Assembly: GCF_011250635.1 (NCBI RefSeq)
Contig: NZ_JAANNP010000016.1
Location: 1-39,828 of the forward strand
Reading direction: 5' to 3'
DNA: 39,828 nt
DNA from: Motilibacter deserti
GTDB taxonomy: Bacteria > Actinomycetota > Actinomycetes > Motilibacterales > Motilibacteraceae
Numbering within the stretch: position 1 is the first letter of the stretch; the number at the start of each line of letters is the position of its first letter. This document shows, piece after piece, positions 1,133 through 38,620 of this stretch. The notes under the pieces were generated by a model. That model saw only the letters and a program-made list of their open reading frames with translations, was not told the origin of the DNA and did not search any database. The translations under genes were made by a program, and so were the position numbers.

Positions 1133-3325
1133 TCAGCGCCCAGCGAGCAGCTCGTCGATCGCGGCGACCAACGCCGCTCGCTCGTCCGGGCTCACGGTGG
1201 ACGGCTTGAGCGAGCTCACCACTCTGCGCAGCGCCTCCAGCTTCGTCTTCACAGCTCGGTCGTCCCCGCGCGTGTCGGCTGCCCAGAGCGAGGAGAGCGT
1301 GCCCTCGAGGTCGCGGACGGCGCTCGCGGCCAGGGCGCCGGACCGGCGCAGCGAGCCGATCCGGGTCACCAGCCCCAGCGTGGCCGGCTCGGTGACGCGG
1401 GACGCGAGCTCGTCGCCGAGCTGTCGGCGAGCCTCGTCGCCGACCTTGCTGCTCGGCGCCAGCGCGATGTGCAGCTGCACGTCGCGCAGTGCGCGAAGCG
1501 CGGCGTCAGCATCCTGGGCCAGGACGGCGGCCTGCGACCGCTGCAGCGCGCTGCTGATGTCGCGGGCGTAGCTCGACGCGACGGTGGGCGCCGAGAGGAC
1601 GGGCGCCACCGACGCCTGCAGCGCCGCCAGTGCGTTCGCGGTCAGCTGCACCGCAACGGTGAAGGTACCCAGAGCCCTGTCGCCGAGCACGGCCCGGACG
1701 GTCTGGGTGCCAGCTCGCGTCGGGTCGTAGCCGGTCGTGCGGACCGAGCCCGTCACGTCGACGACGGTGCCGTCGTCCAGGGTCGCGTGCACCGACAGCC
1801 CCGTCAGGTCGAGCGGGTCGCCGACGGCGTAGGAGGTCCTGGCCGGTGCCGTCACGTCCACCGAGCGGATGGCCGTCAGGGGCCTGACGTCGACGGTCGC
1901 CGTGGCTGTCGGCGGGTCCGAGACGTACAGGCTGCGCCCGCCGGGCGGCGGAGTGAGGGTGCCGCCGTTCGCGACGGCGTTCTTCTCGTCGGCGAACGAG
2001 TCGCCCTGCACCGTGCCTGTCACTTGCACTACCCCGGTGGTGGAGGTGTCGACGGCGCCCCAGGCCACCGGCCGCTGCTGGGTCGTGCCGTCGGAGATGT
2101 TCACCGTGACGGTGCTCGGCAGCTGCGGCTGAGCCCCCGCGAGCGTCACGGCGGAGACGGGCTGGGCGGAGACGACGTCCGCGGCGCGCACCCGGTCGTA
2201 CTCCGCCTTCGTCAGCGGGATGACGCCGCCGTGCTTGGTGTTCGACACCATCCCCTGCATGGCATTGCGGCCCATGCTCGTCCACTGGCCCTGCGAGATG
2301 TCGGTGGTGGTGTAGGGGCGGTATCCCTGGTCGCGGCCGCCGTACTGGTCGACGAAGAGGTACCAACGGTTCTCGGTGTTCGCCTTGAAGAACAGCGGCG
2401 CCTCGACCTGGCCGTATTCAGCAGCGCCGATGCGCGTCGACAGGATCGTCCACGCCGTCTCCTGCTTCCACCATTGCGGGTCGGTCGTCTTCGCGAAGAT
2501 GATGCCGCGGTTCAGGCCGCCGTTCTCCTTGAAGGCGCGGTAGGTGACGCCGTCGTACTGATGGACCGAGGTGTCGATGGTGTCCGCGGTGCCCTCGGCC
2601 TCGTACATGACGCCGGGGCCGTCGGGGTTGCGGGCGTCGAGGTCGGCCTGCGTGAAGTCCGACGTGAACGAGTAGAGCGTCCGGCTCTTCGCGGGGCCGG
2701 TGTGCTGCGGGTCGGTCGCGGCGAAGACCGTGGACGACCAGTAGACGACGAACGCCTGGGACGCCTCGTCCCAGGTCGCCTCGGGAGCCCAGGCCCGGCC
2801 CACCGTCGCATCGGCGACACGGACCAGCCGCGGCTCGCCCCAGTTGACGAGGTCGGTGGACTCCCACACGACGAGGCTCTGGCTCGCGTGCCGGTAGAGG
2901 TACCACGGCCGGTATCCCGGAGGAGCGTCCGGCGGGTAGTCCCGCCCGTTGCCCCAGAACACCCGAAGGTCCGTGCCGATGATGTAGTACTTGCCGGTCT
3001 TGGGGTTGCGCACGATGTAGGGGTCACGGACACCTGACGTCCCGAGGTGGTTCGCGAGGATCGGCCGCCCCTGGTTGAGCCGGGTCCACGACGTCGCGTC
3101 GTCACCGTTGCTCACGTCGAGGTAGATCTTCTCGGCGTAGCCGTTCGGCTCCTCGAGGAAGTGCACCATCAGGTAGCCGTACGGGTCGTCCGGTGCCACG
3201 TCGGCGGCTGCCGAGGCGGTGGGGGCGGTCCCGGCGTGCGCGGGCGCCGCGGTGTGGCCGAGGGTGACCACGAGGGCGGCGGTGGTGACGGCTCCCCACA
3301 AGCGGTGCAGGCGTGCTCTTCTCAC
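1133..3325 (-). CDS. Secreted GH43-family glycosidase with Ig-like domains and helical tail
   Basis: Predicted extracellular alpha-L-arabinofuranosidase/beta-xylosidase-type enzyme (730 aa). I start at GTG 3325 because AAAGGAG lies 6 bases upstream and a signal peptide follows directly (basic RRARLHR, hydrophobic stretch, AHA cleavage region). The GH43 five-blade propeller spans about residues 48-380. It carries GVRDPYIVR (probable catalytic base Asp101), APEATWDE (probable pKa-modulating Asp186) and VEAPLFFK (probable acid Glu308). Next come an Ig-like stretch, a Big_3-like domain (about 485-560) and a C-terminal 166-residue all-helical tandem module also present on both upstream GH43 proteins. 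The exact linkage cleaved is unknown; the arabinan/xylan role rests on the family and neighbours. It is third in a same-strand cluster, after a 105-base gap holding a terminator-like hairpin. Confidence 0.88.
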   Translation of the reverse strand: MRRARLHRLWGAVTTAALVVTLGHTAAPAHAGTAPTASAAADVAPDDPYGYLMVHFLEEPNGYAEKIYLDVSNGDDATSWTRLNQGRPILANHLGTSGVRDPYIVRNPKTGKYYIIGTDLRVFWGNGRDYPPDAPPGYRPWYLYRHASQSLVVWESTDLVNWGEPRLVRVADATVGRAWAPEATWDEASQAFVVYWSSTVFAATDPQHTGPAKSRTLYSFTSDFTQADLDARNPDGPGVMYEAEGTADTIDTSVHQYDGVTYRAFKENGGLNRGIIFAKTTDPQWWKQETAWTILSTRIGAAEYGQVEAPLFFKANTENRWYLFVDQYGGRDQGYRPYTTTDISQGQWTSMGRNAMQGMVSNTKHGGVIPLTKAEYDRVRAADVVSAQPVSAVTLAGAQPQLPSTVTVNISDGTTQQRPVAWGAVDTSTTGVVQVTGTVQGDSFADEKNAVANGGTLTPPPGGRSLYVSDPPTATATVDVRPLTAIRSVDVTAPARTSYAVGDPLDLTGLSVHATLDDGTVVDVTGSVRTTGYDPTRAGTQTVRAVLGDRALGTFTVAVQLTANALAALQASVAPVLSAPTVASSYARDISSALQRSQAAVLAQDADAALRALRDVQLHIALAPSSKVGDEARRQLGDELASRVTEPATLGLVTRIGSLRRSGALAASAVRDLEGTLSSLWAADTRGDDRAVKTKLEALRRVVSSLKPSTVSPDERAALVAAIDELLAGR

Positions 3326-3371
3326 GGGCAACTCCTTTGCGAATCGGGCAGATCGCGGGGTGCTGGAAGCA

Positions 3372-3405
3372 CGATGGGGCGGGCCGTCGCCGGCCCGCCC
3401 CATCG
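3372..3405 (-). terminator. Perfect intercistronic hairpin inside the GH43 cluster
   Basis: A 14-bp perfect stem (3372-3385 with 3392-3405) has a 6-base loop. It lies between the stop of the LamG-GH43 gene (3431) and the start of the next GH43 gene (3325). It can act as a terminator or as an attenuator that lowers expression of the distal enzyme. Confidence 0.8.
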
Positions 3406-3430
3406 CTTGTCACAGCGGATGTGCCACGGA

Positions 3431-6400
3431 CTACGAGATCAGGTCGTCCAGCAGCGGGAGCAGCACGGCGCGCGCGTGCGCGCTCGCCTTCCCGCTCGAC
3501 GCCGAGGTCAGCGCGTTCCGCGCCGACCGGAGGTGCTGCTGCTGGACGCTGCCCTGCGCCGCCGCGGCCGCCGCCAGCGACTCGTGCAGGTCATCGGCCA
3601 GGCTGGACGACAGGTCGCCGCTCGCCATGAGCGCCCCGACCTGCATGCGGGCCTCGTCGATCCCGGACGGAGCCCCCAGCCACAGCTCGAGCAGCTCGCT
3701 GAGGCCGGCCCGGGCCTGCGCCGAGAGCTTGCTCGGCTTGGCCGTGTTGAGCAGGTCCTGCAGGGCGCGGGCCTGGGCCAGTGCCGCCGCGGTGTCGTTC
3801 GCCTGCTCGGCCTGCGCGATCGCGTCGACGACGCGCTGCAGGTCACGGCCGAAGCTCGCGACCACGTTGCCGCTGGACACGGCCGACGCGACCGCCGAGC
3901 GCACCTGCGACGTGGCCGGCAGGACCTGGACGGACGCGGTGTCCTGCGAGGCGTTGAGGTACTCGAAGCCGAGGTACTCGGCCTTGACGGTCTGGGCCCC
4001 GCCGGGAAGGTTGCCCGGCAGGGTCACCGAGGCGACCCCGTTCTCGAGGTACGCGGTGGCGGACCACGAGCCCGAGGAGAAGCGCACCTGGCCGCCGGTC
4101 TCGAACGTGTCCGCAGCGGTGACCCGCGCCGTCGCGGTGGCCGGCGTGCTCTGGAACATCGCCGAGGAGACGGTCAGGTCCGTCGTCGTCGCCACGTTGC
4201 TGTTGGCGATGCCGCGGATCGAGTTCCACTCGCGCAGGGTGATCGGCAGGACCGTCCCGTGACGCGGCCGGGGGACACCGGCGTTCGTCATCGTGATGGT
4301 CTTGGCGTTCCAGGTCTTCGCCTCGATGTCCTCGTGGCACGCCGCCTGGTAGCCGCCGCCGTTGGTGTAGCGGTCACCCCAGAGGTAGAACTGGCCCGGG
4401 CAGGCCGTGTCGCCAGGGTTGGCCTTGAAGACCACCGGGCCCTCGTAGCCCGCGTTCGGCTGCCACGTCGTACGACCCAGCGCCGGAGCGACGGGGATCC
4501 AGTTGTTGATGTTGCTGTCGAGGAAGTCCGTGTTCTTCTCCGAGAAGATGTCGGACCCGGCGTTGCCGGCCTCGTTCTTCGTGACGCGGTAGTAGTAGTC
4601 GCCGACCTTGATCGCGGTCGTGTCGATCCGCGACTGGGGGAACGGGTTCTGCCACACCTTGGGCTCGGAGAACGTCTGGAAGTCGCGCGTGGTGGCGAGC
4701 CACATCTGGGCGTTGCCAGGGTTGGTGCGGTTGACCGGGTCGTTCCAGAGCGACTGGGCCCAGAAGACCGCGTAGGCGCCGATCTCGTCGACCCACAGCG
4801 ACTCCGGGGCGAAGGCGTTGCCGGCGTTGTCGGGGGCGACCTTGACGTGCCGCTGCGGCGTCCAGTTCACGAGGTCGTGGGACTCGAAGACCTCGATGTA
4901 CTGGGTGTCGTTGATGTTGTAGCCACCCTGGTCGTACCAGTTCAGGTCGGTGGCGATCATGTAGAAGGTGTCGCCGTCGGGGGACCGCGTGATGTGCGGG
5001 TCGCGCAGGCCCTGGTCACCGAGCTGGGAGATGAGCGACGGCCGGCCACCGGTCAGGCCGGTCCAGTCGAGGGCGTTGTTGCCGTTGGAGGTGGCGAACA
5101 TGATCTGCTCGCCGTCGGCCATGTTCTCGCCCTTGAAGTAGCCGAGGAAGTAGCGCTCCTTCTCCTCCTTGCGCGGCAGCGGCTTGACGGTCACGGGGAA
5201 CGTCTTCGTCTGCGTCGCCGAGCCCTTGGTGATCGTGGCCGTCAGCGTCGCGTTCACGGCCGGGCGGCCGTACGCCGGGCGGGTGACGATGCCGGTGGGC
5301 GAGATGAGGTTGCTGGTGGACGACCAGGTGATGGTCGAGCCGAACTCGCCGCGACTCGGCAGGTCGATGTCGCCGCGCACGTCGTCGGTCTTGTAGAGGC
5401 TGAGGTCGAGCCGGTCACGGTCGACCGACTGGGCGTCGTTGAACTGCGCCTTCACCGTCACGGTGATCTGGCGGGTGACGACGGTGTCGGCCCCCTTGCG
5501 CACCGTGGCGGTGAGGACGGCGGTCGCGTCGGGCTGGCCGAGGGCCGGCCGCGTGATGCGCCCCGTCACCGGCACCTTGGCGGCGCTCGCCGTGGCGGGC
5601 GGGGTGTAGATCGAGACGACGGACGGGTCGGAGCTCGTCCACGTGATGGCCGACCCGGCCACCGAGCCGAACTTCGGCAGGACGATGTCGTCCACGATCG
5701 CGCTCGTGAGGCCGAGGTCGATGGCGGCGGCGTCGGCCGTGGCCCCGGACGTCACGGTGGGGGCCGCGAGCTCGCGGACCTCGTCCGTGGTCACGGCCCG
5801 GTCGTAGACCCGGAAGTCCTTGAGCGTGCCGCGGAAGGAGTAGTGGGTGGAGGTCTGCGACCGCGCGAGGAAGTTGCAGTTGGTGCCCGCGGCCGCGTTG
5901 ACCGAGGGCGGGGTCGTGATGTTGGTCGCCTGGGCGTGCTGGACGCCGTCGACGAAGACGGTGCCGGTCCAGCTCGTGCCGTTGGCGTTCGGCGCCTGCG
6001 TGTAGGTCACATGCTTCCAGGTGCCCTCGCGCAGGTTGCTCGGCGCGGCTGCCATGACGCTCTGGTTGCCGGCCGTGACGCGGAAGCGGAGGCCCGGGCG
6101 GGGGGCGGTGTTCGACGCGAAGATCGAGCCCTGGCCGCCGGTGTCCACGTCGCAGCTACCGGACTTGCTGCCGAAGCTCCACATCTGGTGGTCGCCGACG
6201 TTGGCCGGGTCGACCCAGACGTCGTAGTCGACGGTCATGCTCGACATGCCCGCCGTGAGGTTGTTCGGCAGCTTGACGTACGCCCCGGTGAGCGCGCTCT
6301 CGTAGGAGCTGGGGTTGAAGCGCACCCCGTCCCCGGTCAGCGCGGCCTTGTCCGCGTTGACGAGCATCGCGTCAGCTGCCGCGCCGGCGCTTCCGGTGTT

Positions 6401-6610
6401 GCGCAGCGTGGTGCCGCTGGTCTCGTCGAGCTTGAAGCGGTGCACCAGGCCCGCGGTCACGTCCTGCGCGGTGAGGACGTCCCCTTCCCCGCTCGGCGTG
6501 TCAGCCTCCGCGGTTGCCGCCGTCAGCGAGCCGAAGCCCAGTGACAGTGCGGCGACGGCGCCGAGGAGGCGGAAGCCGCCCGCTCTCGGCCAGGTGGTCG
6601 TGTGGCTCAT
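3431..6610 (-). CDS. Secreted LamG / Ig-like / GH43 glycosidase with helical tail
   Basis: Large extracellular enzyme (1059 aa), probably an arabinofuranosidase or related GH43 activity. ATG 6610 is preceded by GAAGGAG at 12 bases, a long spacing, and starts a signal peptide (PRAGGFRLLGAV followed by a hydrophobic core, cut near AEA). Domain order: LamG/concanavalin-like sugar-binding domain (about 45-285); two atrophied-Ig-type domains (about 290-475) with ITWTSSDPSV and ITWSSTSNLI cores; GH43 catalytic domain (about 480-800) with GLRDPHITR (base) and YEGPVVFK (acid Glu); another Ig-like segment; and a 157-residue helical tandem module at the C-terminus. Only 61 bases separate it from the upstream GH43 gene and no terminator is seen, so the two are probably co-transcribed. 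The substrate is inferred. Confidence 0.9.
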   Translation of the reverse strand: MSHTTTWPRAGGFRLLGAVAALSLGFGSLTAATAEADTPSGEGDVLTAQDVTAGLVHRFKLDETSGTTLRNTGSAGAAADAMLVNADKAALTGDGVRFNPSSYESALTGAYVKLPNNLTAGMSSMTVDYDVWVDPANVGDHQMWSFGSKSGSCDVDTGGQGSIFASNTAPRPGLRFRVTAGNQSVMAAAPSNLREGTWKHVTYTQAPNANGTSWTGTVFVDGVQHAQATNITTPPSVNAAAGTNCNFLARSQTSTHYSFRGTLKDFRVYDRAVTTDEVRELAAPTVTSGATADAAAIDLGLTSAIVDDIVLPKFGSVAGSAITWTSSDPSVVSIYTPPATASAAKVPVTGRITRPALGQPDATAVLTATVRKGADTVVTRQITVTVKAQFNDAQSVDRDRLDLSLYKTDDVRGDIDLPSRGEFGSTITWSSTSNLISPTGIVTRPAYGRPAVNATLTATITKGSATQTKTFPVTVKPLPRKEEKERYFLGYFKGENMADGEQIMFATSNGNNALDWTGLTGGRPSLISQLGDQGLRDPHITRSPDGDTFYMIATDLNWYDQGGYNINDTQYIEVFESHDLVNWTPQRHVKVAPDNAGNAFAPESLWVDEIGAYAVFWAQSLWNDPVNRTNPGNAQMWLATTRDFQTFSEPKVWQNPFPQSRIDTTAIKVGDYYYRVTKNEAGNAGSDIFSEKNTDFLDSNINNWIPVAPALGRTTWQPNAGYEGPVVFKANPGDTACPGQFYLWGDRYTNGGGYQAACHEDIEAKTWNAKTITMTNAGVPRPRHGTVLPITLREWNSIRGIANSNVATTTDLTVSSAMFQSTPATATARVTAADTFETGGQVRFSSGSWSATAYLENGVASVTLPGNLPGGAQTVKAEYLGFEYLNASQDTASVQVLPATSQVRSAVASAVSSGNVVASFGRDLQRVVDAIAQAEQANDTAAALAQARALQDLLNTAKPSKLSAQARAGLSELLELWLGAPSGIDEARMQVGALMASGDLSSSLADDLHESLAAAAAAQGSVQQQHLRSARNALTSASSGKASAHARAVLLPLLDDLIS

Positions 6611-6671
6611 AGGGATCGCATACTCCTTCGTAGGTGGTCCCGTTCACTGATTCCGCGTGCAGGAATGCTGC

Positions 6672-9308
6672 CTAGCGGAGGGCTTGTCCGATCAGGTCGA
6701 GCAGGGCGGCCTTGGCCTCGTCGCCGATCTTGCTGGGCTTGGCCGAGGTGACGGCGGCCTGCAGAGCCTCGAGCCGGGTGCGCTGCTCGGCCGCGGTCGG
6801 AGCCGAGGCCGCCGCGGCCAGGCTCTCCTGCAGCTGCTTCGCCGTGCTCGTGGCGATGTCGCCGCTGCGGGTCAGCGAGCCGATCTCCGTCCGCAGCTCG
6901 TCCAGCGGCGAGAGGTCCAGCCACAGCTCGGTCAGCTGCAGCAGGGACTCGCGGGCCTGGTCACCCATCTTGCTCTGCGCGGCGAGGTCCAGCTCGGAGC
7001 GCAGGGCGCGCAGCTGCGCCAGCAGGGCCATACGGTCCGCATCGTCCTCGGCGCCCTGTGCGGCGTCGAGCGCGGCGAGCAGGTCCCGGCCGAGGCTCGC
7101 GGTGACGGACCCGTCGGCCGTCAGCTGGTCGACGGCCTCCTCGAGCTGGGCGACGGGCGCGGTGAACCGCCAGTGGTCGACGTCGAACAGCTCTGCGGTG
7201 CCGGTGCCCTTGTAGGTGAAGAAGACGTCGTGGACGCCGGTGACGGTCCGGGTGAGGAGCGTGCTGACCGAGGACCACGCCGCGGAGGACGACGCCGGGA
7301 CGGACAGGGTGCCGACGAGGTTGGCGTCGCTGGAGGTGTCGGGGCTGTCCAGCCGAATCTGGACCTGACCGCCGGCCTTGGCCAGCACGTCGGCGCTGAA
7401 GCCGCGGGCGCCGGTGGCCCCGCCGCTGCCGAAGTCGACCTTGGACAGCGACGTCCACTCGCCGTTGTTGATGTTGGTGAGCTTCTGCTCCGTCGCGGTG
7501 CCGGCGACCGGCTGCACCCGGACCCCGGACGACGGGACGTAGGCGTCCTGGATGCCCGAGTCCCACGCGATCGTCTCGGCCTCGGTGCGGTGGTACGGGT
7601 TCACCGTGCCCTGCTGCGGCACCCCCTGGTAGGTCATCGTGATGGGCGCGATGCTGCCGTCGGGGTTGATCGTCACCTTGTCGATGTGCGTCGAGCGGTA
7701 GCCGCGCGCCGCGGACAGGGACCCGCCGGCCACGATCGCGCGCTGCACGGTCTGGGCGTGGTAGGTGATGTACATCTGCCCGTTGAACTCGAACATCGCG
7801 TGGTGGTTGTTGCCGCCGACCCCGAAGAACGCCGCGGGGTTCTGCATGATCTCGCCGCGGTACGTGTCGGCCGTCCACGGGCCCATGGGGCTGTCCGCGA
7901 CCATGTAGGCGATGTTGCCGTTGCCGATGCGCTTGCCGTCGATGACCGGGCTGTGGCTGAAGTTGGTGCAGTAGCTGTAGTAGTACTTGCCGTTGATCTT
8001 GTTCATGCCCGAGTCCTCGAACAGCGCCGGCGCGTCGATCGGCGCGGCGCTGCCGACGGTGCTGATGAGGTCGTCGCCGAGCTTGATGACCCGGGCGGTC
8101 TTCGGGTGGTCGGTGTTGCCCGTCGGGACGCCGCCGCCGAAGTAGAGGTAGGCCTGCCCGTCGTCGTCGATGAACACCGCAGGGTCGAACAGCCACACGA
8201 CGCCCGCGACGCCCGGCGTCTGCTGGGTGACCAGCGCCTTGCCGATGGGGTCGACGAAGGGCCCGGTGGGGGAGTCCGAGGTCAGCACCCCGATACCGCC
8301 GGCGCTGTTGGCGAAGTAGAGGAAGAACTTCTCCTTGCCGTTGATCGTCTTGTGCGTCGCCGACGGGGCCCAGGAGTTCGCGGCCCACTTCGCCGCGCCG
8401 AACGTGCCGCCGACCTTGACCTGGCCCTCGTTCGTCCAGTTGACCATGTCGGCCGACGACAGGATCGTCAGCGTGCGGATGAGGCCATAGGAGTTGTCCT
8501 TGATCCCCTGCGCGTCGTACTCGTAGTCCTGCACGACGTTGCCCGCGGCGTCGTATTGCATCCCGTCGGACGTCATGTAGACGTAGACCCGGCCGTCGTA
8601 GGTCATCGCGAACGGGTCGGCGCCGTACTGGTAGTCCATCAACGGGTTCGAGTTGCCCACCGTCTTGGCCGGCAGCGCGTTGCCCGGGGGATGGACGACC
8701 GGGGCCGTGCCGTCCTGCAACGTCACGTCGTCGACCGTGAAGTCCATGAGGTGGGTGTTCGGGTCCGCCCCGGGGGTCGCCGTCCACGGGGTCTCGACGA
8801 AGATCCGGGCTGTCGTGACGCTCTGGGTGGCCGGGATCGTGAACGTCCCCTGCACCAGCCCCCACTGGCCGCGCGGCACCGTCACCGTGCCGAGGTTGGT
8901 GTAGGTCGCGCCGCCGTAGTGCATGGTGACGAAGAACTGCTTCGTGGCAGGGCTGGCAGGGTTCGTGTACTTCACCCGCGCGGTGACGGTGTAGGTCCGC
9001 CCGGCGACGACCCTTCCCGAGACGTCCTGCATCGGGCCGGACCCGGTCGTCTTCCGCTGGGTCACGAGCACCGCGCTCGAGCCGGAGAACGCGTCGCCCG
9101 TCGGCGAGAGGGCCGCCCCGTCGGTCGCGTTGCCGTTGTTGGGGAACCAGCCGGTCAAGCCGCTCTCGAAGCCCGGGTTCACCAGGATGTTCGGCCCGAG
9201 GTCGGCGGTCGCCGGCGGCGCGGCGAGCAGCCCGCCCGCGAACAGCGCCGCGACGGCGGCGCACACGGCCGCTCTGCGTCGGCTCCGGGGCGCCCTGAGT
9301 CGCTTCAC
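6672..9308 (-). CDS. Secreted arabinoxylan arabinofuranohydrolase-like GH43 (CBM-GH43-CBM6) with helical tail
   Basis: Exported debranching enzyme (878 aa) that probably removes arabinofuranosyl groups from arabinoxylan. GTG 9308 is chosen because AAGGAGGA lies 6 bases upstream and a signal peptide (KRLRAPRSRRRAAV, hydrophobic stretch, ATA) follows. A CBM4/9/22-like sandwich (NPGFESGLTGW, ending DFTVDDVTL) covers about residues 35-200. The GH43 domain (about 220-555) has GADPFAMTYDGRVY (base Asp), FDPAVFIDDDG (pKa Asp) and APALFEDSG (acid Glu), as in the BsAXH-m2,3 type. A CBM6-like domain (about 580-715) ends in FDVDHWRF. The last 160 residues are the two-repeat helical module. It is first in the cluster, behind a promoter and palindromes, so it is the best candidate for direct LacI control. 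The family is clear; the exact specificity is inferred. Confidence 0.92.
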   Translation of the reverse strand: MKRLRAPRSRRRAAVCAAVAALFAGGLLAAPPATADLGPNILVNPGFESGLTGWFPNNGNATDGAALSPTGDAFSGSSAVLVTQRKTTGSGPMQDVSGRVVAGRTYTVTARVKYTNPASPATKQFFVTMHYGGATYTNLGTVTVPRGQWGLVQGTFTIPATQSVTTARIFVETPWTATPGADPNTHLMDFTVDDVTLQDGTAPVVHPPGNALPAKTVGNSNPLMDYQYGADPFAMTYDGRVYVYMTSDGMQYDAAGNVVQDYEYDAQGIKDNSYGLIRTLTILSSADMVNWTNEGQVKVGGTFGAAKWAANSWAPSATHKTINGKEKFFLYFANSAGGIGVLTSDSPTGPFVDPIGKALVTQQTPGVAGVVWLFDPAVFIDDDGQAYLYFGGGVPTGNTDHPKTARVIKLGDDLISTVGSAAPIDAPALFEDSGMNKINGKYYYSYCTNFSHSPVIDGKRIGNGNIAYMVADSPMGPWTADTYRGEIMQNPAAFFGVGGNNHHAMFEFNGQMYITYHAQTVQRAIVAGGSLSAARGYRSTHIDKVTINPDGSIAPITMTYQGVPQQGTVNPYHRTEAETIAWDSGIQDAYVPSSGVRVQPVAGTATEQKLTNINNGEWTSLSKVDFGSGGATGARGFSADVLAKAGGQVQIRLDSPDTSSDANLVGTLSVPASSSAAWSSVSTLLTRTVTGVHDVFFTYKGTGTAELFDVDHWRFTAPVAQLEEAVDQLTADGSVTASLGRDLLAALDAAQGAEDDADRMALLAQLRALRSELDLAAQSKMGDQARESLLQLTELWLDLSPLDELRTEIGSLTRSGDIATSTAKQLQESLAAAASAPTAAEQRTRLEALQAAVTSAKPSKIGDEAKAALLDLIGQALR

Positions 9309-9363
9309 GTGCAGTCCTCCTTGAACGTCATCGGTCAAGTGCCGGCGGTCCCGCCCCTGCTGG

Positions 9364-11820: not shown

Positions 11821-13125
11821 TCAGAGCAGCCCACGCCCCAGCGACTGGCCGGGCTGCAGCCCCGGCGGGACCGCGTAGATCCCGCTGGCGGTCGGGGTCA
11901 TGAACTTCCCGAGCAGGTCGTTGCTCGCGATCCGCTGCTGCGCCGGGATGAACTGCGTCCGCGGATCGGCGTTGAACGTGGCGAACAGCAGCCCCGCGTC
12001 GTACGCCTCGTGGCCGCCGTGGCCGGGCTCGTCGCCGTGCTCGTCCCCGCCGGCGTGCAGCCGCGTGGAGTCGAAGCCGTAGTCGTAGTTGTAGGCGCGG
12101 CGGAACATCGGGAACGCGTGCATCTGGCGTACGTGTGCCGCCGGGTCGATGAGCGGCCTCCCGTCCGCCCCCACGGCGGCCAGGTCGAGCTTCGTCCGGG
12201 TGGGGGCGCCCGCGGCGGCGGACAGCGGGCTCCCGTCGGCCAGCCGCCGCCCGACCGAGCGGTCCTGCTCCGCTCCCGACGTGAGGCTCCACGACGCGAG
12301 GGCGAGCCGGATCTTGCGGAAGACGAGGTAGGTGCCGCCGCGCAGCCAGCTCGGCGTGGCCGCGTCGTCCGCCCACACCAGGTCGCCGAACTCCGCCTTC
12401 GCGGGGCGGGGGTTCGACGTCCCGTCGTGCAGGCCGAGCAGGTTGCGCGGCGCCTTGCCGTCGGTGGGCGGGCTGATGAAGCCCTGCTGAGACCAGCGGA
12501 GTGCCGCGACGCCCACGGTGAGGGCGCGCATCTGGAGGAAGGCGTGGGACAGGATCTGCTGGTCGTCGGCGCAGATCTGGACGAGGAGGTCGCCGCCGCT
12601 GTGGGCGGCCACGAGCTGGTCCCCGGGGAAGCCCGGCAGCGTGTCGAGTGCGGCTGGCTTGTGCTCGGCCAGCCCGAACCGCGCGTCGAACAGCCGCGGC
12701 CCGAAGCCGAAGGTGAAGGTCAGGCGGGCGGGAAACAGCTCAAGTGCGATTCCTGAATCGCCTCGCGCACCAGGGACTCGGGTGGGGCGCGCCGGCGCCG
12801 GCTCCCCGCGGGTGAGCGCCTCCGCCGTCGACGTCCATTGGCGCAGCAGGTTGGCCAGCGCGTCCCGGCTCGTCGTGGTGACGTCGAAGGCCACGAACAG
12901 GCCGTAGCTCTGCTGGCGCGTGGTGATGCCTGCCTGGCGCGGGCCGTAGAACGGCTCGATCTCGCTGCGCGGCACGCCGCCCGCCGCCGCGGCCGCGCCG
13001 CCCGGAAGGCCCGTCGCGCCGGCGACCCCGAGCCCGGCAGCTGCGGCCCCGCGGAGCAGGCTCCTCCGGCTGAGGCCGCCCGCGGTCTCCACGGCCTGTG
13101 TCGTGTCGTGCGTCGAGCTGCTCAT
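11821..13125 (-). CDS. Tat-exported DyP-type heme peroxidase (EfeB-like)
   Basis: Dye-decolourising peroxidase (434 aa) that uses H2O2 to oxidise dyes, phenolics or porphyrins outside the membrane. ATG 13125 begins MSSSTHDTTQ and leads to a twin-arginine signal SRRSLLRG (residues 19-26) with a hydrophobic, alanine-rich h-region. The DyP signature GLHDG is at 231-235 (catalytic Asp234). The proximal heme ligand is probably His331 in AAHVRQMHAF, and Arg343 in MFRRAYNYDYG fits the distal arginine. A His/Asp/Gly-rich insert (about residues 355-370) follows. Iron-uptake partners efeU and efeO are absent nearby, so a stand-alone oxidative role, for example on lignin phenolics or peroxide, is possible. 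It is convergent with the GAF gene, 57 bases apart. Confidence 0.93.
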   Translation of the reverse strand: MSSSTHDTTQAVETAGGLSRRSLLRGAAAAGLGVAGATGLPGGAAAAAGGVPRSEIEPFYGPRQAGITTRQQSYGLFVAFDVTTTSRDALANLLRQWTSTAEALTRGEPAPARPTRVPGARGDSGIALELFPARLTFTFGFGPRLFDARFGLAEHKPAALDTLPGFPGDQLVAAHSGGDLLVQICADDQQILSHAFLQMRALTVGVAALRWSQQGFISPPTDGKAPRNLLGLHDGTSNPRPAKAEFGDLVWADDAATPSWLRGGTYLVFRKIRLALASWSLTSGAEQDRSVGRRLADGSPLSAAAGAPTRTKLDLAAVGADGRPLIDPAAHVRQMHAFPMFRRAYNYDYGFDSTRLHAGGDEHGDEPGHGGHEAYDAGLLFATFNADPRTQFIPAQQRIASNDLLGKFMTPTASGIYAVPPGLQPGQSLGRGLL

Positions 13126-13694
13126 GTCGTCCGTCCTCGGTCTGGGAAGGTGTGCGTCGGTGCAGCTACCTCCACGGCGCGGCAGACGTGTGCCCGGCCG
13201 TCGACGAGCCATGGGCTGCCCCGACCCGGCCGCTGGAACTGCACGGGACGTTCAGCCCTTCGTTCGTTGGTCGGTGCCAGGACGAGGAAGGTTCCCGTGG
13301 TCTCAACGCTGAAGGCGTCGTCAACCGGTGGCGGGGCGACCGGCCGCGCGGTCAGCTCCGGCTCGCTGCTGCGGACCGTTCGGAGCGGGACACCCCCGTG
13401 TGTCAAGCGGCGAACAGCGGCACCCGCCGCATCGGCGGCAGGCTCTTCCCATCGGCCCGACCGACACCGGCAGCAAGGCTCGCGGATCGGAGAACGCATC
13501 GACCACGTCACGCCACGAGACAAAGGGGAAGCGAAATGCGCGGAACTCGGGTTCGGGTCATCTCCATCGCCGCTCGGGGCGGGCCTTCCGCACGGCTACC
13601 GCACCGCAGCACGATGCCTCACGAGATCGGCGGCGAGCTCGTCACGGGTCCTGCCGGTGCTGTTCCGGCGGCGCGAGCGGCTGGTGTTCGGGGC
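13126..13694. other. Long intergenic region without a supported gene
   Basis: These 569 bases lie between the 5' end of the peroxidase gene and the 3' end of the TetR gene. Open frames exist on both strands but lack the strong G/C third-position bias of the neighbours. A Shine-Dalgarno-like AAAGGGGAA followed by ATG at 13536 on the plus strand leads only into the antisense of tetR. The peroxidase promoter must lie in the first part; I see no clear -10/-35 pair. Confidence 0.5.
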
Positions 13695-35734: not shown

Positions 35735-36031
35735 TGCGCCACCGTCCTCGTGCCTGCGACCGCCGGGTGCGTCCGCTTCGTCCGAGGCTAGTCGAAGCGC
35801 GCCAACGGCGTCGGAGCCGGCGCCCGCCGCCGTCCCTCTCGCGAACAGCGCGGCGGCGCTCCCGCCGGAGGCGTGAGCCCCGGCCTTCTCGGCCAGGGCC
35901 TCGTCCTCGTCCCAGCATGCGGGACGCAGTCTCGAATCACTTGCCGGCTCACGACACGCGCGGACACGCAGGCGACACGTGCGGGTCGTAGCTTCGCGGC
36001 GCCATCCAGCCGCGAACGTGAGGAACCGCCG
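35735..36031. other. Divergent intergenic region between phytochrome and asparaginase genes
   Basis: About 297 bases that should hold both promoters. Three GACACG hexamers at 35953, 35963 and 35974 are 10-11 bases apart. The phytochrome reading frame stays open through the whole region with no usual start codon. AGGAA at 36021-36025 is the asparaginase ribosome site. Confidence 0.45.
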
Positions 36032-38569
36032 GTGATTCTTGCCCGCAGACCGATCTCGACACTCGCCGTCGTCGCCGTCGCCACCGCTCTCGTCGGCAGC
36101 GGCGTCGCCGTCGCTGCCGGCACGGACCAGTCCAGCCGGTCCGCGGAAGTGGTGGCCTCGGCCGCCGACACCGACCTGCCCAACGTCACGGTCCTCGACG
36201 CCGGGGGGACGATCGTCTCCTCGGCGGTGGGACGCAACCGTTGGCAGTCGTACGGCGGCCCGCGCGTGACGATCAGGGACATCAAGGACCGCATCAGCCC
36301 GGAGATCGACGGCGTCGCCGACGTGACGATCAAGGACACCGGGATCCTGGGCAGCTCGGCAGCGACGACAGCGGCCGAGCTGCTCAAGCTGACGAAGATG
36401 ACCGACGCCGAGCTGGCCAGGCCGGACGTCGACGCCGTGGTCATCAACACCGGCACGAACATCATGGAGGAGCTGGCGTACTGGTCGGACCTGACCGTCC
36501 GCAGCCCCAAGCCCGTGGTCTTCACGGGCGCGATGCGTCAGCAGAACACGTTCTCCTTCGACGGCCTGGCGAACCTCTTCAACGCGATCACGCTGGCCGC
36601 CAGCGAGAAGACCACCTGCTTCGGCACCGTCCTGCTGATGAACGACGTGTTCTTCGCCGCGCGGGAGGTGACCAAGACCGACGCGGTCCGGACCGACACC
36701 TTCGAGGGGGGCCGGCTCGGCGCGCTCGGCATGGTCGACGAGCTCAAGGTGCGTACGCTGCACGCCCCCGCGCGCGTGCAGAAGTGCGGCACCGCCGGCT
36801 GGGCGACCCCCTTCGACCTCACCGACGTCGAGGCCGGGGACCTGGCGAAGGCCGAGATCGTCTACTCCTATCTCGAGGCCGACGGCGAGCCCGTCGCGGC
36901 GCTGGCCGAGGACGCCGACGTCGACGGCATCGTCACGGCCGGCCACGGCGCCGGCGGCATCTCCACCGAGCAGTCGGCGCTCCGGGCCGCTGCGATCGCC
37001 AACGAGGACGTCGTCTTCGTGTCGACGACCCGGACCGGCGACGGCTCCGTCTACGTCGCCGACGGCACGCGCAACATCATCGGCGGGCAGGACCTCACGC
37101 CGCAGAAGGCCCGCGTGCTGCTCCAGCTGGCGCTGACCTTCACCAAGGACCCCGAGCAGATCCGGGCCTGGTTCAAGACCGTCGGGTCGCCGGAGTTCGA
37201 CCTGTCGGGCAAGGCGTCCACCCCCGAGCCGCCGACCGCCACAGTCGACTCGCTGCTCGCGGCCGCGCAGGCGGACGTACGCGCGGCCCGCGCCGCAGGC
37301 ACGCTGAGCACGGGCACGGCGACCCTGCTGCTGGACCGGCTCGACCGGGCCGTCGCGGCGTACGCGAAGAATGACAGGGCGAAGACGGCTTCCTATGTCG
37401 AGGCGTTCGTCGACCGCGCCGAGCAGCGGGTGGACGACGTCGCGCTCCGGACGGCCCTCGTGAAGGCGGGAGAGGACGTGCTCGCGGCGCTGACGACGCC
37501 CGGAGCCCCGGCGGTCGTCACGGCGGCGGACACGCCCCTGCCGAACGTCACGATCCTCGACGCCGGCGGGACGATCACGTCGTCGGCGGTCGCCCGGCAC
37601 AAGTGGCAGACCTACGGCGGGCCTGGGATCACGATCAAGGACGTCTACGACCGCATCAGCCCCGAGATCACGACCGTCGCCGACGTCACCATCGTCCCGA
37701 CCGGCATCGCGGGCAGCTCGGCGCGCACGACCGCCGCGGAGCTGGTGAAGCTGACGAAGATGACCGACGCCGAGCTGGCCAAGCCGGACGTCGACGCGGT
37801 CGTCATCAACACCGGCACGAACATCATGGAGGAGCTGGCGTACTGGTCGGACCTGACCGTCCGCAGCCAGAAGCCGGTCGTTTTCACCGGTGCGATGCGT
37901 CAGCAGAACACGTTCTCCTTCGACGGCCTGGCGAACCTCTTCAACGCGGTCACGCTGGCCGCCAGTCAGAAGACCACCTGCTTCGGCACCGTCCTGCTGC
38001 TCAACGACGTGTTCTTCGCCGCGCGGGAGGTGACCAAGACCGACGCGGTCCGGACCGACACCTTCGAGGGCGGCCGGCTCGGCGCGCTCGGCATGGTCGA
38101 CGAGGACCGCGTGCGCACGCTGCACGGCCCGGCGCGGGTCACGAAGTGCGGGACCGACGAGTGGGCGACGCCGTTCGACCTGTCCGCCGTCGAGGGCGAC
38201 GACCTGGCGAAGGCCGAGATCGTCTACTCCTACCTGGAGGCGGACTCCACGCCGATCGAGGTGCTCGCGCGCAGCGGCGTCGACGGCATCGTCACCGCGG
38301 GCCACGGCGCGGGTGGCATCTCGACCTCGCAGTCGATCGAGCGTGCGGCCGCGGTCCGCGACGAGGGCACGGTGTTCGTCTCGACCACCCGCACCGGCGA
38401 CGGCTCGGTGTACGTCGAGGGCACGCCCAACGTCATCGGCGGGCTCGACCTGACCCCGCAGAAGGCGCGGGTCCTGCTCCAGCTCGGCCTGACGTTCTCG
38501 AAGGACCCCGAGCAGGTCCGCACCTGGTTCAGCACGATCGGCTCTCCGGAGTTCGACCTCTCCGACTGA
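36032..38569 (+). CDS. Exported protein with two tandem asparaginase-like domains
   Basis: Secreted type II asparaginase-like protein of 845 aa, twice the normal length. GTG 36032 follows GAGGAA by 6 bases and starts a signal peptide (ARRPISTLAVVAV, cut near AVAAG). Domain 1 (about 45-395) and domain 2 (about 500-845) each have DAGGTI (Thr60, Thr514), NTGTNIMEELAYW (Thr142, Thr596), MRQQNTFSFDGLANL and EVTKTDAV (Lys215, Lys669). In both, the substrate-binding Asp of the usual GTDT motif is Asn (Asn143, Asn597), so activity or specificity may differ from L-asparaginase. The two copies are offset by exactly 1362 bases and are nearly identical over long stretches. A helical linker of about 85 residues resembles the GH43 tails. 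A strong terminator follows. Confidence 0.88.
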   Translation: MILARRPISTLAVVAVATALVGSGVAVAAGTDQSSRSAEVVASAADTDLPNVTVLDAGGTIVSSAVGRNRWQSYGGPRVTIRDIKDRISPEIDGVADVTIKDTGILGSSAATTAAELLKLTKMTDAELARPDVDAVVINTGTNIMEELAYWSDLTVRSPKPVVFTGAMRQQNTFSFDGLANLFNAITLAASEKTTCFGTVLLMNDVFFAAREVTKTDAVRTDTFEGGRLGALGMVDELKVRTLHAPARVQKCGTAGWATPFDLTDVEAGDLAKAEIVYSYLEADGEPVAALAEDADVDGIVTAGHGAGGISTEQSALRAAAIANEDVVFVSTTRTGDGSVYVADGTRNIIGGQDLTPQKARVLLQLALTFTKDPEQIRAWFKTVGSPEFDLSGKASTPEPPTATVDSLLAAAQADVRAARAAGTLSTGTATLLLDRLDRAVAAYAKNDRAKTASYVEAFVDRAEQRVDDVALRTALVKAGEDVLAALTTPGAPAVVTAADTPLPNVTILDAGGTITSSAVARHKWQTYGGPGITIKDVYDRISPEITTVADVTIVPTGIAGSSARTTAAELVKLTKMTDAELAKPDVDAVVINTGTNIMEELAYWSDLTVRSQKPVVFTGAMRQQNTFSFDGLANLFNAVTLAASQKTTCFGTVLLLNDVFFAAREVTKTDAVRTDTFEGGRLGALGMVDEDRVRTLHGPARVTKCGTDEWATPFDLSAVEGDDLAKAEIVYSYLEADSTPIEVLARSGVDGIVTAGHGAGGISTSQSIERAAAVRDEGTVFVSTTRTGDGSVYVEGTPNVIGGLDLTPQKARVLLQLGLTFSKDPEQVRTWFSTIGSPEFDLSD
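36161..38566 (+). repeat. Internal gene duplication, 1362-bp period
   Basis: Copies begin near 36161 and 37523 and cover about 1040 bases each. The stretches 36389-36600 and 37751-37962 are almost identical at the nucleotide level, including synonymous positions. This suggests recent duplication or continuing gene conversion. Confidence 0.9.
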
Positions 38570-38580
38570 GCCGGAGGCCC

Positions 38581-38611
38581 GGGGGCTGCCGCGCACGCCG
38601 CGGCAGCCCCC
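38581..38611. terminator. Perfect terminator hairpin after the asparaginase gene
   Basis: A 13-bp perfect stem (38581-38593 with 38599-38611) and a 5-base loop are followed on the plus strand by a short CCTTTCT. It lies between convergent stops at 38569 and 38621 and can serve both. Confidence 0.9.
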
Positions 38612-38620
38612 CGCGCCTTT

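Follow-up and report, generated by a model that had tools for sequence, protein, structure and literature searches.

In the E. coli type II asparaginase EcAII (AnsB), L-Asp is contacted by Ser58, Gln59, Gly88, Thr89, Asp90 and Glu283′, as listed in the accessible part of PMC8460627. The available text of PMC8256714 counts Asp90 among five crucial residues and describes it as the proton sink for the first attack, and that of PMC6667453 states that it is invariant in all L-asparaginases, indispensable, and needed for substrate binding as well as catalysis. Here we describe a gene in which asparagine stands in place of this residue in both asparaginase domains of a single chain. It lies in a stretch of 39,828 nucleotides from Motilibacter deserti (NCBI RefSeq assembly GCF_011250635.1, contig NZ_JAANNP010000016.1, positions 1 to 39,828 of the forward strand; hereafter the window), as a frame on the + strand that is open from the GTG at 36032 through the TGA at 38569. 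It encodes, in order, a signal peptide (recognised by eye) and two asparaginase domains, 1 and 2, with a helical linker between them.

Residues are numbered throughout as in E. coli AnsB, for which the numbering of the key residues was checked. Both copies read VINTGTNIMEELAYW, so that T-G-T-N stands against T89-D90 of AnsB, and the equivalents of Thr12, Tyr25, Ser58, Thr89 and Lys162 are retained in both domains. An initial annotation, made from the letters of the window, had already noted Asn for Asp in both copies with the catalytic Thr and Lys kept, and the AnsB alignment bears this out (Thr12, Thr89 and Lys162 are present in both). Beyond position 90, Gln59 is replaced by Ala and the loop that bears Glu283 is absent. 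Of the features that mark an L-asparaginase (EC 3.5.1.1), the protein thus has Thr12 and Tyr25 of the flexible loop and lacks the Thr89-Lys162-Asp90 triad, with Asn90 in both domains and in 10/10 rows of its clade (see below). The initial annotation had also assigned Asp90 the binding of the substrate amino group; its importance for binding agrees with the accessible text of PMC6667453 and PMC8256714, but a role as amino-group ligand alone is too narrow, since the residue is described in the text available to us as a general base or proton sink as well.

PF00710 and PF17763 each matched the window protein twice above their curated Pfam cut-offs, and the type II asparaginase model TIGR00520 scored 480.3 bits against a cut-off of 314.3, with the two stretches summed. 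The equivalog NF008304 (‘L-asparaginase 2’) did not reach its cut-off even with both domains summed (385.8 bits vs 506). An AlphaFold2 model of domain 1, aligned with 10 other sequences, had a predicted template modelling score (pTM) of 0.80 and a mean predicted local distance difference test score (pLDDT) of 72.8, falling below 50 in the loop after the first motif and in a stretch after Lys162. All of the 50 Foldseek matches listed for this model were L-asparaginases (template modelling score to target 0.84-0.89).

Relatives were collected from several sources, and residues were read in the retrieved loci only. One scan of genome contigs found nine loci, namely five of Paenibacillus with Asn90 (61-65% identity) and four, from Streptosporangium, Catellatospora, Plantactinospora and Nonomuraea, with Gln90 (43-47% identity). 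Whole-genome searches with the window domain covered its own phylum (396 genomes), class (393), and family and order (the same 5); further genome searches covered the family (104) and phylum (398) of P. agricola, the families of Plantactinospora mayteni (250) and Streptosporangium sp. (341), and six genomes of named loci. The best match in a plasmid collection was a Rhodococcus opacus plasmid protein with Asn90 (221 records matched, 20 listed; of the other matches FraE, L068, alone was read), and a phage collection gave 13 matching records at 29-36% identity.

Across 150 distinct aligned rows, which include E. coli AnsB, exclude stretches shorter than 250 residues and are query-biased, so that the counts are not natural frequencies, position 90 held Asp in 130, Asn in 14, Gln in 5 and Gly in 1. 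Two isolated class 1 proteins without Asp90, L117 (Asn90) and L149 (Gly90), lie outside the secreted clade described next. In a quick tree of 106 rows, from which type I-like rows without Tyr25 were left out, the window domains belong to a secreted clade of 66 rows (Shimodaira-Hasegawa-like approximate likelihood ratio test, SH-aLRT, 100). Within it the 10 Asn rows form one clade (100), the 5 Gln rows form another (100), and 51 rows, including the window genome's own paralogue (on C232), have Asp90. Thr12, Tyr25, Ser58, Thr89 and Lys162 are conserved throughout the 66 rows, in every one of which position 59 is Ala, Ser or Gly rather than Gln and Glu283 falls in a gap.

The Asn clade comprises ten domains of nine proteins from Actinomycetota and Bacillota: the window pair, the five named Paenibacillus proteins, those of two further genomes of the same family, and the Rhodococcus plasmid protein. 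Conservation of the Asn among homologues, and with it the distinct exported subfamily that the initial annotation had proposed, is upheld by these trees, with Asn90 in 10/10 domains of one class 1 asparaginase clade against Asp in 130/150 aligned rows. Because the loss of Asp90 is common to relatives in distant bacteria, it is unlikely to be an error, and the Asn90 proteins probably form a genuine subfamily, in which either the substrate has changed or the active site has been rewired. Decay or assembly error was rejected on the ground that nine proteins of two phyla share Asn90. That the gene is an artefact or a decaying pseudogene, for which the unusual residue alone and an assembly in 269 contigs could be cited, is moreover exceedingly improbable in view of the open frame, the conserved start, the ratio of nonsynonymous to synonymous divergence (dN/dS) of about 0.33 between the copies, and the orthologue ends found in a sister species.

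A second, more careful tree was built from 43 rows, made up of the 10 Asn and 5 Gln rows, 17 Asp rows left from the 51 after thinning at 85% identity, 4 new rows and 7 outgroup rows. It recovered the Asn clade at 100/100 and grouped the Gln rows with three further Asn rows at 99/99. These three (L181, L182 and L183, of the Streptosporangium family) constitute a second Asn90 group beside the Gln90 clade, with Glu91 and with Ser58 changed to Ala or Gly. The residue-90 labels on this tree need three changes; neither one shared loss of Asp in the 18 non-Asp rows (approximately unbiased test, AU, p 0.427) nor a single Asn clade (AU p 0.109) was rejected. Such a pattern might also be expected of a pseudoenzyme, that is, a secreted or surface protein that would bind a ligand in the asparaginase pocket without turnover. 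A residue described as indispensable is lost, Asn and Gln occupy its position in two branches of the secreted clade (albeit with a single loss not rejected), and the Gln90 rows and the second Asn90 group lack the GAGG loop, the latter group also lacking Ser58. However, Thr12, Thr89 and Lys162 are present in 20/20 non-Asp rows and Tyr25 in 19/20, residues for which a binding protein would have no need, and the dN/dS between the two copies likewise argues against this explanation, which we regard as rather improbable.

Covariation was read in 70 rows of the secreted clade (13 with Asn90 and 57 with Asp90 or Gln90). Only columns 90 (Asn), 164 (Asp) and 293 (Gly) have one residue in 13/13 Asn rows and in 0/57 Asp/Gln rows. 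Position 164 lies two residues past the catalytic Lys162, and the pattern suggests that a carboxylate may have moved from 90 to 164. The window's own clade further has Ile91, Gln117, Thr120 and His244 in 10/10 rows, against 0/56 Asp/Gln rows of the secreted clade, and His244 occurs in 0/39 of the other rows with Tyr25. The Gln90 clade has Glu at position 60 in 5/5 rows, and might represent a different solution to the loss of Asp90. Asp164, the clade-specific residues and Glu60 are best treated as candidates, either for replacements of the lost acid or for changes of the pocket; with regard to the initial annotation, which had raised an acid supplied from another position as an objection to its own reading, Asp164 is likewise a candidate only.

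The explanation that we favour, tentatively and at a little under an even chance, is that the window protein is a secreted amidohydrolase with a rebuilt site for the alpha-amino group and proton relay, and that free L-Asn is probably not its main substrate. It retains the class 1 type II asparaginase fold together with Thr12 and Tyr25 on the nucleophile side, Thr89 and Lys162 as the second Thr-Lys pair, and Ser58, which binds the carboxylate, but has Asn in place of the catalytic, amino-binding Asp90. Because the secreted clade also lacks Gln59 and the Glu283 loop, the protein with Asn90 would have no recognisable acidic ligand for the substrate alpha-ammonium, so that free L-Asn or L-Gln would probably not be what it chiefly acts on. 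A better fit would be an amide whose alpha-amino group is blocked or missing, such as peptidyl-, acyl- or glycosyl-asparagine, or else a non-amino-acid amide. In place of Asp90, the substrate carboxylate or Asp164 might serve as proton acceptor, and the tandem would provide two sites per exported chain. Self-deamidation of Asn90 to Asp was considered and set aside; Asn-Ile is a slow deamidation site, and Gln holds the position in a sister branch.

Several observations weigh against this explanation. Outside the clade, 11 rows combine Asp164 with Asp90 and L117 combines Asn90 with Ala164, so that Asn90 and Asp164 are no strict swap; moreover, their pairing goes back to at most two origins, too few for a significant sign test (p 0.5). 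Position 59 varies in nature, with Gln in only 14% of orthologues (PMC9500103), and type 1 enzymes are also without a counterpart of Glu283, according to the accessible text of PMC8256714. Because Gln59 and Glu283 vary in ordinary class 1 enzymes, their absence is weakened as an argument for a new substrate and does not by itself exclude asparagine. Neighbouring genes gave no pointer to a substrate when the translated flanks of nine relatives were inspected by eye.

The same variability speaks for the alternative that the protein remains an L-asparaginase/glutaminase, possibly with a lower rate or a different optimal pH, in which Asn90 would hydrogen-bond the substrate, the substrate carboxylate or Asp164 would take the proton, and the subfamily would simply tolerate the change. 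The whole fold and five of the usual key positions are kept, and the summed TIGR00520 score lies well over its cut-off. Nevertheless, the statements in the available text of PMC6667453 and PMC8256714 that Asp90 is invariant and needed for binding and catalysis count against it, as does the clade-wide fixation of Asn90 together with changes in the pocket region (Ile91, Gln117, Thr120 and His244). We consider this alternative plausible but unlikely, and retain the amidohydrolase with a rebuilt amino-group site as the preferred explanation.

The two domains of the window protein are 82% identical and are sisters in the tree, with a dN of 0.13 and a dS of 0.39 between them. Synonymous differences are unevenly distributed, amounting to 10/113 same-residue codons at domain positions 81-200 versus 57/173 elsewhere (Fisher p 1.6e-6), which indicates that the active-site segment was probably gene-converted between the copies. 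The copies are consequently not independent witnesses, and the support that the initial annotation had drawn from both of them sharing the Asn falls away. Selection of Asn90 twice, once per copy, was rejected as well, the domains being sisters with a seemingly converted active-site segment.

No second asparaginase domain in the same frame was found among the other proteins of the retrieved loci. The tandem was therefore seen only in the window and, by inference, in the sister species, and the other subfamily members that were read have a single domain; two domains per chain, as initially annotated, hold for this protein but not as a trait of the subfamily. The own paralogue has a single asparaginase domain followed by a FIMAH tail. 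In the window protein, the linker scored 18.1 bits with the Pfam family FIMAH (PF22888), under the cut-off of 24.8, but it matches the tail of this paralogue (phmmer domain E 2.3e-14). Because that tail passes the FIMAH cut-off (26.8 bits), the linker is FIMAH-like by homology. Similar stretches were found at 12 further places in the genome (31-43% identity) and also recur in the sister species. The tandem may thus have arisen as a duplicated asparaginase-FIMAH unit of which the last tail was lost.

Contig ends interrupt the orthologue in the sister species (G398), where contig C9 finishes with its 5′ end and C23 opens with its 3′ end. The 3′ piece (120 codons) has a dS of 0.39 to domain 2 and 0.51 to domain 1, and the matching parts of the two domains have a dS of 0.57. 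Because the piece is nearer to domain 2 than the domains are to each other, the duplication is probably older than the split from the sister species.

Whether the tandem forms an intramolecular intimate dimer, in which the domains would complete each other's site and two chains would make up the usual four-site particle of the type II homotetramer (a dimer of intimate dimers), is a question on which we are almost evenly divided, leaning slightly against. In class 1 enzymes the active sites sit between the subunits of the intimate dimer (PMC8256714, accessible text), and the 104 residues between the two domain stretches are mostly helical in the full-length model, with four helices at residues 409-492, in the linker. 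Pairing of Asp90 relatives in seven genomes of the Paenibacillus family further implies that pairing recurs in the clade. The full-length model itself says nothing about docking; its pTM of 0.41 is too poor for this, and MAFFT twice aligned the homologues to a single half of the protein.

The Paenibacillus-family pairs are side-by-side separate genes, seen in 7 of the 26 genomes with a match (104 searched; L077-L083 and L094-L097). In the four that were scanned with Pfam, the second gene encodes three S-layer homology (SLH) domains and matches fn3, in one case weakly. Such neighbours are probably a soluble and a surface-bound pair.

Table. Features of the tandem asparaginase gene and the adjoining hairpin, in coordinates of the window.
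Feature	Position	Strand	Basis
Signal peptide with GTG start	36032..36118	+	Sec-type; translation, with the cleavage site judged by eye
Asparaginase domain 1 (PF00710 + PF17763)	36164..37213	+	Pfam; AlphaFold2 and Foldseek
AAC (Asn) codon in place of Asp90, domain 1	36458..36460	+	Alignment to E. coli AnsB
Lys162 equivalent (36674-36676) and Asp164 (36680-36682), domain 1	36674..36682	+	Alignment
His244 of domain 1, a residue diagnostic of the window's Asn90 clade	36944..36946	+	Alignment
FIMAH-like four-helix linker between the domains	37244..37495	+	Pfam below cut-off; match to paralogue tail; model helices
Asparaginase domain 2 (PF00710 + PF17763)	37526..38566	+	Pfam; 82% identical to domain 1
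AAC (Asn) codon in place of Asp90, domain 2	37820..37822	+	Alignment to E. coli AnsB
Lys162 equivalent (38036-38038) and Asp164 (38042-38044), domain 2	38036..38044	+	Alignment
His244, domain 2	38303..38305	+	Alignment
Probable terminator hairpin between the asparaginase gene and the convergent APH-family gene	38573..38620	.	Folding versus shuffles

A GAGG ribosome-binding site precedes the GTG start, and both features recur in the sister-species orthologue (L130), as read by eye at its 5′ end. Downstream, the hairpin that is probably a terminator folds at -40.4 kcal/mol (z -4.75), with 0/200 shuffles equally stable, and is followed by the convergent APH-family gene. Upstream lies a phytochrome-SpoIIE gene on the opposite strand; in the sister species an extra sigma-factor-like gene, read by eye, stands between this gene and the asparaginase gene (compared with 35900-36032 in the window). 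An Rfam scan of the window gave no match.

The flanks of relatives were read at the five Paenibacillus and four Gln90 loci from translated frames rather than by domain scan; for L055 the annotation of the record itself was used. L043, L045 and L050 have two nearby genes in common, and L043 and L045 share more, as expected of close species. These genes were not seen at L042, L044, the Gln90 loci or the window, and nothing recognisable recurred in the flanks across the clade.

Elsewhere in the window, three consecutive exported proteins with C-terminal FIMAH domains above the cut-off are encoded at 1133-9338 on the - strand, one of them clearly a GH43 glycosidase, with CBM4/9 and CBM6, and another with a GH43 match below the cut-off. 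A Dyp-type peroxidase with a twin-arginine-like signal (by eye) is encoded at 11821-13212, also on the - strand.

Both the fold and the family are already known, and a clade-wide loss of Asp90 with Asp164 was not found in the open-access papers searched. The same open-access collection yielded no paper on a D90N asparaginase, on the FIMAH domain or on an asparaginase with S-layer homology in Paenibacillus, and no useful one on a tandem or a pseudoenzyme asparaginase. The Asparaginase Database, which according to the accessible text of PMC13425635 holds 40 families, many without studied members, may already include the Asn90 group as an uncharacterised family. Naturally conserved Asn90 and Gln90 clades offer a direct test of the mechanism in which Asp90 is the proton acceptor, and reveal how a class 1 enzyme behaves in its absence. 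Such clades may also yield amidohydrolases of new specificity that share their scaffold with a leukaemia drug, and where these proteins are automatically labelled ‘type II asparaginase’ the implied substrate may be wrong.

Compared with the type II enzymes of E. coli (AnsB/EcAII), Erwinia/Dickeya and Wolinella, the window protein is alike in fold, in Thr12, Tyr25, Ser58, Thr89 and Lys162, and in its signal peptide, but differs from class 1 type II enzymes in Asn90, Ala59, the missing Glu283 loop, Asp164, His244 and two domains per chain. The secreted Asp90 relatives of Paenibacillus, of Micromonosporaceae and of the window genome itself (its own paralogue; C232, L001) belong to the same enclosing clade (45-52% identity to domain 1) and have likewise lost Gln59 and the Glu283 loop, and the own paralogue carries a FIMAH tail; unlike the window protein, these relatives keep Asp90 and have Asn or Ser at 164 and Thr at 244. 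The short-chain class 1 enzyme RrA of Rhodospirillum rubrum is a fold variant whose alpha-amino contacts differ from those of EcAII (PMC10949315, accessible part), but it is without the C-terminal domain and has the T-K-D triad intact (PMC12951835, accessible part). Finally, FraE of Salmonella and Klebsiella is a relative (37-38% identity) and is likewise changed at both 59 (Glu) and 283 (Gly or a gap, depending on the alignment). In contrast to the window protein, FraE keeps Asp90, is encoded in an operon and has a single domain; the window gene has no fra operon neighbours, lying between the phytochrome-SpoIIE and APH-family genes. FraE is reported to be periplasmic and is proposed, in a model set out in the accessible text of PMC4072780, to deamidate the alpha-N-substituted fructose-asparagine; it may serve as a partial precedent for an alpha-N-substituted substrate.

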